From the NCBI RefSeq assembly GCF_014696105.1, contig NZ_JACJPO010000018.1, forward strand, positions 62,001-126,000: a stretch of DNA of 64,000 nucleotides, given 5' to 3'. The stretch is from Microcoleus sp. FACHB-1515 (GTDB lineage: Bacteria > Cyanobacteriota > Cyanobacteriia > Elainellales > Elainellaceae). The first letter of the stretch is position 1. Each line of letters begins with the position of its first letter. Positions 62,098-64,000 of this stretch are shown piece by piece. The position numbers and the translations under genes were made by a program. A model generated the notes under the pieces. That model was not told where the DNA came from and did not search any database. It saw only the letters and a list, made by a program, of their open reading frames with translations.

Positions 62098-62799
62098 CTA
62101 AAGAGAGCGAGTGAGTTTGCGATCGATCACGCTGCGGTTTTGCTCTAGCGATCGCTGCATCGTGTCAAGCTGATCAAGCTGCATCTTGAAATCATCAGCG
62201 GCTTTTTGAAAGCGCACCTTCCGCTCTAAAGCTGCCCGCGCCAAATCTTCGCGATTTTGCTTCAGAGCAAGCTGGGCGACGCGCTGCCAAGTGTTCACAT
62301 CCTGCATCGCCTGGTCATACTGCGGCTGAAGATGGCTGCGGGCATAGGTGATATTGTGAACGGCCTGATCGAACGATTGCACGGCAGCGATCGGATCTCC
62401 GGTTTCAGCCGCTTCTGCAATCAGCGGTGGAGCACTTTCGCCGCCGACGCCGCCGACGCCCAAGCCAAAATCGGCCAGTTGCTGACATTCGTTGCGTCCG
62501 GTTTTGCACCAGGTGGCAAAGTGTTCGCAGTTGTTGGTGAGCAAATTGTAGTTTTGCTCACCCAGGCGGCTTTCGGCACGCTCAATGACAATATCGGGAA
62601 TGTAGGAAACGGGATGATGTTTCACAAATATCTGTCTGCCCATCGCGAATTCTGCGATCGAGGTGCGGGCGATCATCGCTGTGTCGGTTTTACGAAAGTG
62701 AATCACCGTGCCATCACCGCAGTCGATGCCGTGATGCTCATAGATGCCAGAAAGTCCCGCAAACGGTCGCAGAACGTAGATTTGATCGCCTCGTGCCAT
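62098..62799 (-). CDS. LRAT-like acyl-enzyme fused to a PspA/IM30-like coiled coil
   Basis: A 233-residue protein. The N half (1-125) follows the LRAT/NlpC-P60-like pattern: YEHHGIDCGDGTVIHF with catalytic His near H23 and H34, and LLTNNCEHFATWC with the thiol C91. LRAT proteins move fatty acyl chains or act as phospholipases. The C half (about 135-233) is helical and follows PspA/IM30 (Vipp1): W171-x3-A-x-LAL then REDLARAALERK, as in the helical hairpin of these ESCRT-III-like membrane remodellers. The PspA part is incomplete: only the hairpin is present, not the later helices. No signal peptide. It lies 23 bases after the FHA gene, on the same strand, and is probably the last gene of that operon. 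The fusion is inferred by eye. Confidence 0.8.
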   Translation of the reverse strand: MARGDQIYVLRPFAGLSGIYEHHGIDCGDGTVIHFRKTDTAMIARTSIAEFAMGRQIFVKHHPVSYIPDIVIERAESRLGEQNYNLLTNNCEHFATWCKTGRNECQQLADFGLGVGGVGGESAPPLIAEAAETGDPIAAVQSFDQAVHNITYARSHLQPQYDQAMQDVNTWQRVAQLALKQNREDLARAALERKVRFQKAADDFKMQLDQLDTMQRSLEQNRSVIDRKLTRSL

Positions 62800-62822: not shown

Positions 62823-63248
62823 TTAAGAAGGATTCCAGGGCAGATCGACTTCGGGCGGCTGGACGGTGATATCGGTGTCCATGCTGGTGTCGGGACGTTC
62901 GCTCACGGTGCGATCGCCTGCCAGCGCATCTTCCTTGAGCGCTTCTGAGCCAATGCGAATCCGCAAATTCGGCCCGCTGCGGGCGAGGCGAATGACTGCA
63001 CCATCCACAATTTCCACCTGTGTCACTCGCTTGCCGTCCAGATAGGTGCCGTTTGTTCCCAGATTGACGACTTCCCAGCTCTTGCCTGTCCGTCGCAGTT
63101 CCACGTGATGCCGCGACACCACTGCACTGTAGAGAATCACTTGATTGTCAGTCGATCGCCCGATGCGGATGATCGACTCATGCTCTTGGAAATTCCAGTG
63201 CTGAAGTGCAATCTGCTTGAGCGGATGCAAAAGTGTCAGGGTAATCAC
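62823..63248 (-). CDS. FHA domain protein
   Basis: A 141-residue phosphothreonine-binding protein. The FHA core is IRIGRSTDNQVILYSAVVSRHHVELR, seen here in parts (IGRSTDNQ, SRHHVEL) and NLGTNGTYLDGKRV. A short acidic tail follows (VSERPDTSMDTDITVQ) with several Thr that might themselves be phosphorylated. It starts with GTG at 63248 with no evident ribosome binding site, 60 bases after the upstream FHA gene. Confidence 0.9.
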   Translation of the reverse strand: MITLTLLHPLKQIALQHWNFQEHESIIRIGRSTDNQVILYSAVVSRHHVELRRTGKSWEVVNLGTNGTYLDGKRVTQVEIVDGAVIRLARSGPNLRIRIGSEALKEDALAGDRTVSERPDTSMDTDITVQPPEVDLPWNPS

Positions 63249-63308: not shown

Positions 63309-64000
63309 CTAGCTTTGGAACAAAAACGTGACGCGATCGCCTTTTCCGAGGGCAATGCGATCGCCCGCCCGCAGACGATGACGATTACCCATCGGCAAAG
63401 GCGCGTTGTTGATGTAGGTTCCATTTGAACTACCCACGTCTTCGATGTAGTAAATGCCGCCTTCAACGCGAATATCCGCATGAATGCGCGACACAATTTC
63501 GGAATCCGGAAATCCCGACACATCCACATCGGGCGGAATGCGATCGTTCGGTTTGCCAATGTGAATAACGGCCAAATTTCCCGGCAGTTCGATCGTCGTG
63601 TTGGTTTGCACGTGCAGCAGCCGCGCAGTGGGAACCTGAAGCTGCGTGCGATTGGCAGGCGTTGCAGCAACATCCGGCGGCGCAAGTGGCGACGCGATCG
63701 AATCGGGTGCAACTGGGTCGGGCGCAGCGGAGTGAGGCGCGATCGCCGGATCAGGATGGTTCACAGGTTCACTGCCGATCGGCATTGGGTCAGGGGACAC
63801 CAGCGGATCGGGCGAAACCAAATCGGGAATGTCTAAATCTGGTGCAGGAGATTCACCAACGGCAGTTGCAGGAACCGGAGCAACCGTTCGTAAGTTGGTG
63901 CCACACTGTCCGCAAAAGCTCGCATCTGCCTGCACCGCAGCGCCGCAGTTCGAGCAGGTTGTCATCGCGGGCAGCGGCGTATAGCAAGCTTCACACTGAA
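63309..64000 (-). CDS. Zinc-ribbon and FHA domain protein, 5' end outside the window
   Basis: The ATG at 63965 gives 218 residues, but the same frame is open to base 64000 and holds another Cys pair (QCEACYTPLPA), so the true start is probably beyond the window. The zinc-ribbon Cys pairs CSNCG and CGQCG follow. A Pro-, Ala- and Asp-rich linker (about residues 35-105) leads to a C-terminal FHA domain (IHIGKPNDRIPPDVDVSGF, SRIHADIRVEG, GSSNGTYINN). It should read phosphothreonine on a partner. The FHA gene and the LRAT-PspA gene follow on the same strand. Confidence 0.85.
   Translation of the reverse strand, partial: QCEACYTPLPAMTTCSNCGAAVQADASFCGQCGTNLRTVAPVPATAVGESPAPDLDIPDLVSPDPLVSPDPMPIGSEPVNHPDPAIAPHSAAPDPVAPDSIASPLAPPDVAATPANRTQLQVPTARLLHVQTNTTIELPGNLAVIHIGKPNDRIPPDVDVSGFPDSEIVSRIHADIRVEGGIYYIEDVGSSNGTYINNAPLPMGNRHRLRAGDRIALGKGDRVTFLFQS

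Follow-up and report, generated by a model that had tools for sequence, protein, structure and literature searches.

Fusion of a PspA_IM30 domain to an NlpC/P60-type domain has been reported before. Ravi et al. 2024 (mSystems, PMC11237479) note that such a protein exists (AFZ52345.1) and predict that it modifies phosphatidylcholine. Their account is a single sentence, and the main text does not analyse residues, the hairpin, distribution or operons. Literature searches pairing LRAT with PspA returned nothing beyond this paper, and no experimental study of the activity, substrate or localisation of any member. The sequence-only reading of the present locus had held that no described protein combines lipid acyl chemistry with an ESCRT-III-like fold, a claim that the earlier publication overturns. 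The protein described here contains, by Pfam, the published combination of PspA_IM30 and an NlpC/P60-type domain, and is a further, uncharacterised member of an already reported fusion. It has in common with that report both the domain pair and the idea of an enzyme altering membrane lipid.

Human PLAAT3, of the PLAAT/HRASLS enzymes, consists of an LRAT domain followed by a C-terminal TM/CT tail and is recruited by membrane damage; tail-truncated PLAAT3 is not recruited, yet deforms membranes once forcibly recruited (PMC9338259). In Vipp1 polymers, α5 from subunit j binds to the tip of the hairpin in subunit j+3 (interface 1), and α5N binds a tip of the adjacent rung (interface 3). A cross-link forms between L86C and L193C of α5, and polymers do not form without α5 (PMC8281802). 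The isolated α1-3 hairpin of Synechocystis IM30, with a pI of 9.43, binds PG membranes and liposomes in vitro and the cytoplasmic membrane in vivo (PMC12636044). Among bacterial permuted NlpC/P60 enzymes, the phospholipase Tox-Act1 cleaves PG and PE (PMC12994826), and LnsA, of S. aureus lipoprotein N-acylation, probably acts on acyl lipids (PMC7387801). Action on acyl lipids, which PLAATs and LRAT share, is also what we propose for the fusion protein, whereas LnsA and Tox-Act1 lack a PspA hairpin and differ from it in partners and context.

The fusion gene occupies 62098..62799 (-) of the window, by which we mean the whole 64,000-nucleotide stretch of Microcoleus sp. FACHB-1515 DNA analysed. 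The ORF begins with ATG, encodes 233 aa and ends with a stop codon at 62098-62100; its start Met is kept in 99 of 103 relatives in the family alignment. AlphaFold2, run with a 71-row family alignment as input, yields an antiparallel hairpin connected through a flexible linker to a PLAAT-like domain, at a whole-protein mean pLDDT of 87. The LRAT/PLAAT-type permuted papain-like domain spans residues 2-103 (62491..62796 (-)), the Gly-rich linker residues 111-135 (62395..62469 (-); pLDDT <50 at 112-120), and the two helices of the hairpin residues 136-180 and 184-232 (62104..62394 (-)). A chance arrangement or assembly chimera is excluded because 80 independent GTDB loci share the full-length architecture; the 103 aligned members, many in complete or high-quality genomes, likewise rule out an artefact. 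The LRAT-PspA fusion is therefore real, and it is widespread and conserved in cyanobacteria.

The N-terminal half was initially read as an LRAT-type protein with a His-His-Cys set, and this assignment is borne out. Pfam LRAT (PF04970) matches residues 2-103 with an E-value of 8.6e-26 and 91 bits against a curated cut-off of 24.3, and a phmmer search of the PDB aligns residues 35-110 with PLAAT3 (E 2e-4). The domain is modelled at a pLDDT of ~96, and its predicted structure has the expected papain-like LRAT fold: by Foldseek and VIA-align, residues 1-103 match PLAAT3 (7zom) with Z 13.6, an rmsd of 2.0 and 30% identity. The top structural match of the domain (model residues 1-114), tied with PLAAT3, is a Euglena respiratory-supercomplex subunit, 8iuf_E7 (Z 14.3). 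Across the 103 aligned members H22, H23, H34, C91, E92 and H93 are invariant, and the permuted order His-His-Cys with its NCEHF motif is held by H22, H34 and C91 in 103/103. H22 (62734..62736 (-)) is the predicted catalytic His, a role taken from the PLAAT/LRAT family, H34 (62698..62700 (-)) the predicted second active-site His, and C91 within NCEHF (62527..62529 (-)) the predicted acyl-enzyme nucleophile. In our own reading of the alignment, PLAATs have a Trp where the fusion has the invariant H23. The fusion is the sole strong LRAT protein in its source genome. With PLAAT3 it has in common the LRAT fold, the His-His-Cys set, the NCEHF motif and a C-terminal tail of known or, in the fusion, proposed membrane-targeting function, but the PLAAT tail is a transmembrane helix where that of the fusion is a PspA/Vipp1 hairpin, and the host lipids differ. 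The cyanobacterial protein looks like the PLAAT3 plan with an ESCRT-III hairpin as its tail.

The C-terminal half carries the PspA/Vipp1 helix motifs first noticed in it, W171-QRV-A175-Q-LAL and E184-DLARAALERK. Pfam PspA_IM30 (PF04012) matches residues 144-221 above its curated cut-off (E 4.3e-10), and in a phmmer search of the PDB residues 145-230 pair without gaps with Nostoc Vipp1 45-130 (E 2e-9), with a numbering offset of exactly 100 (W171 = W71, L186 = L86). In the model, residues 129-233 superpose on the E. coli PspA hairpin 4whe with an rmsd of 1.5 over 105 residues and also match Vipp1 and Snf7 (Foldseek, VIA-align); the pLDDT reaches 98 around the tip. Generic and unrelated two-helix hairpins match the tail model too, at Z ~10, so it is the sequence evidence that decides. 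Fold scores alone are not decisive, and homology to PspA/Vipp1 in sequence as well as fold rules out an unrelated coiled coil as the C-terminal half.

What has been retained is the α1/α2 hairpin, with a near-identical tip. The protein stops at Vipp1 position ~133 and has the LRAT domain and linker on its N side, and α0, α4, α5 and α6 are absent. The ESCRT-III-like remodelling fold proposed for this half consequently holds for the α1/α2 hairpin with its Vipp1-like tip and fails for the fold as a whole; the initial observation is confirmed and its interpretation partly supported. Given that α0, α4 and α5 are missing and that Vipp1 requires α5, a homopolymer built by the known Vipp1 interfaces is not expected. 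A C-terminal half consisting of the α1/α2 hairpin only would therefore be a targeting or docking element and no remodelling machine by itself.

Conservation within the hairpin is selective. The tip, residues 171-194 (Vipp1 71-94; W...A..AL....EDLARAAL.RK; 62218..62289 (-)), is conserved as in Vipp1/PspA. Taking as reference the positions that are near-invariant in 32 cyanobacterial Vipp1/PspA sequences, the fusion family keeps the same dominant residue at 10/12 in the tip block and at 1/11 in the stem, where Vipp1-invariant residues have been lost (Fisher p 0.0006, a descriptive value because block limits and thresholds were hand-chosen after the table was seen). Two Vipp1-invariant tip positions, L77 and G82, are not kept, and V174 and R183 form a fusion-specific tip signature. 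Since the tip is kept and α5 is missing, and since α5 of Vipp1 binds the hairpin tip, the fusion retains the α5 "socket" without the α5 "plug".

A search for homologues with the same domain order, which the initial reading had called for, recovered the 80 GTDB loci, all cyanobacterial by title or lineage; Leptolyngbya sp. PCC 6406 (L060), a laboratory cyanobacterium, is among the carriers of the gene. The published AFZ52345.1, judged by its description, very probably belongs to the same family; the AFZ accession prefix is presumably one of cyanobacterial genomes. Among 145 genomes sampled from the class, 43 carry the full-length fusion and one more has it truncated where a contig stops; it is present in every one of the 13 genomes sampled from the family to which the source organism belongs (our own count from the table). 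Each of the 43 fusion-bearing genomes also holds further Vipp1/PspA-type matches. Nine of the 145 encode an LRAT domain followed by a Gly-rich hydrophobic stretch and a hairpin, six of which were read at full length or through close relatives.

In a tree of LRAT domains, a branch (100/99) separates the 41 hairpin-tailed rows both from LRATs whose tails are Gly-rich and hydrophobic and from a mixed group, in which hydrophobic-plus-hairpin tails occur alongside the helical tails found in picocyanobacteria. The tails of sister LRATs are thus Gly-rich hydrophobic, hydrophobic plus hairpin, or other helices. Because the tails swap while the catalytic domain stays, the tail appears to behave as a targeting module, like the transmembrane tail of PLAATs. 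The picocyanobacterial LRAT proteins (loci L119-L123 and L137) have a different, helical-looking tail of ~100 aa; in L119 Pfam finds no PspA match in this tail, nor any other. Several related architectures were also encountered. Tandem LRAT domains lie in single ORFs at L178:1088-1912 (-) and L179:967-1791 (+), the first copy having NSKDFA in place of the NCEHF cysteine motif and looking catalytically dead. At L181:616-1761 (-) and L182:721-1866 (+), Vipp1/PspA-like proteins of 381 aa have a Gly/Ala-rich hydrophobic insert between an α0-like start and the hairpin and retain α4/α5; they appear to be PspA proteins that carry a membrane segment of their own. L135:1966-2769 (-) combines a Vipp1 α0-like start with hydrophobic segments rich in Gly and a hairpin of the PspA type, without LRAT or α4/α5, and the 279-aa protein of L180:923-1762 (+) has two PspA-like hairpins in tandem.

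In the window, a double zinc-ribbon and FHA gene (63309..64000 (-), which runs past the window end and is whole in locus L009) is followed by a gene for an FHA-domain protein of 141 aa (62823..63248 (-)) and then, on the same strand and 23 bp downstream, by the fusion gene. Of 80 fetched loci, 72 have at least 1 kb of upstream sequence, and 27 loci, the window locus included (about a third), have an FHA orthologue on the upstream side in the same orientation, usually at <400 bp. The orthologues in L041, L043, L044, L058, L081 and L093 measure ~470-540 aa against 141 aa in the window, and that of L043 has an added Ser/Thr kinase domain (Pfam), a part absent from the window's FHA protein. In other lineages unrelated genes adjoin the fusion gene, so a link to phospho-signalling is suggestive at most, as a lineage-specific hint. 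A conserved operon as the key to function was rejected on the same grounds, with FHA upstream in those 27 loci only. Nor is the fusion gene chromosomally linked to vipp1/pspA, a point against the membrane-targeting model proposed below. Two loci have a gene for an M50B-type membrane metallopeptidase immediately before the LRAT-PspA gene: L058:4896-5666 (+), by Pfam match, and L046:1126-1884 (+), by membership of the same cluster.

Our main reading, to which we assign a probability of roughly 0.6, is that of a cytosolic, membrane-targeted acyl-lipid enzyme, in which the hairpin would recruit a phospholipase A/acyltransferase to anionic stressed membrane, to Vipp1 coats, or to both. A tail that brings the enzyme to the membrane is the best-supported model, if an unproven one. 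For catalysis, substrate, localisation and Vipp1 docking we infer the following course. The LRAT/PLAAT-type domain would form an acyl-thioester on C91, with H22 as base and H34 as third residue, and the acyl chain would then be released as a fatty acid (phospholipase A) or handed to an acceptor (acyltransferase). Cyanobacterial lipids (PG, SQDG, galactolipids) would be the acyl source, unlike phosphatidylcholine in animals. Cyanobacterial thylakoid lipids are mainly MGDG, DGDG, SQDG and PG, and a search of the text of the same paper finds phosphatidylcholine named solely in connection with the chloroplast envelope and in its reference list (PMC5897459). The phosphatidylcholine substrate predicted by Ravi et al. 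should therefore be revised, and we have not adopted it. The hairpin, on its flexible linker, would take the place of the PLAAT membrane tail and bring the catalytic domain to anionic membrane under stress. It could do so through direct electrostatic binding, as for the isolated Vipp1 α1-3 hairpin, or by presenting its Vipp1-like tip to α5 of Vipp1/PspA polymers. Both routes are plausible, and neither excludes the other.

The hairpin may be a mere peripheral anchor that binds lipid directly and is unrelated to Vipp1/PspA polymers, a reading to which we give somewhat less than even odds. The basic tail (pI 9.6; family median 9.7), the binding of the isolated IM30 α1-3 hairpin to PG liposomes and cyanobacterial cytoplasmic membrane, and the Gly-rich hydrophobic tails that related LRATs have instead are all consistent with it. 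However, net tail charge ranges from -2 to +9 across the family, and binding by electrostatics may therefore not be general; the α5-binding tip motif, in contrast, hardly varies. More tentatively, the hairpin may accept α5 in trans and so dock on Vipp1/PspA polymers, bringing lipid-acyl chemistry onto the coat or capping the ends of the polymer. That the tip was selectively retained and the stem lost points this way, as do the part played by the Vipp1 tip in interfaces 1 and 3, where L86, the equivalent of L186, is the cross-linking position, and the co-occurrence of further Vipp1/PspA matches; 6/6 LRAT-hydrophobic-hairpin proteins, which form a separate group in the LRAT tree, retain the tip motif as well. 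The loss of L77 and G82 argues against docking, and the tip residues may serve the turn itself, such that their conservation could partly reflect hairpin folding. That the hairpin is a dimerisation or structural coiled coil only, with no membrane role, is improbable: the match of generic two-helix bundles would allow it, but the specific Vipp1/PspA homology (E 2e-9 to 4e-10) with a PspA-specific tip motif and the hydrophobic nature of the alternative tails of sister LRATs argue otherwise. Least probable is a peptidase or amidase like the classical NlpC/P60 enzymes, which belong to the same superfamily (PMC7387801), given that enzymes of the permuted LRAT branch work on the acyl groups of lipids (PLAATs; Tox-Act1 on PG and PE) and that membrane-type tails suit a lipid substrate.

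The membrane-targeted acyl-lipid enzyme can also be cast in a bolder and, in our view, doubtful form. Here the hairpin tip, as α5 acceptor, would insert the LRAT enzyme in trans into coats of Vipp1/PspA, and lipid acyl chains would be edited exactly at the sites of membrane repair or tubulation by the polymer, gated in one lineage by the adjoining FHA/Ser-Thr-kinase genes. As the family is conserved and its tails have been exchanged in nature for hairpins, hydrophobic stretches and other helices, targeting is testable by tail exchange. If the main model is right, cyanobacteria would couple a PLAAT-like lipid enzyme to Vipp1/PspA membrane repair, a bacterial counterpart of the recruitment of PLAAT3 to damaged organelle membranes, and the cooperation of lipid chemistry with ESCRT-III-type remodelling in thylakoid and plasma-membrane stress would become testable.
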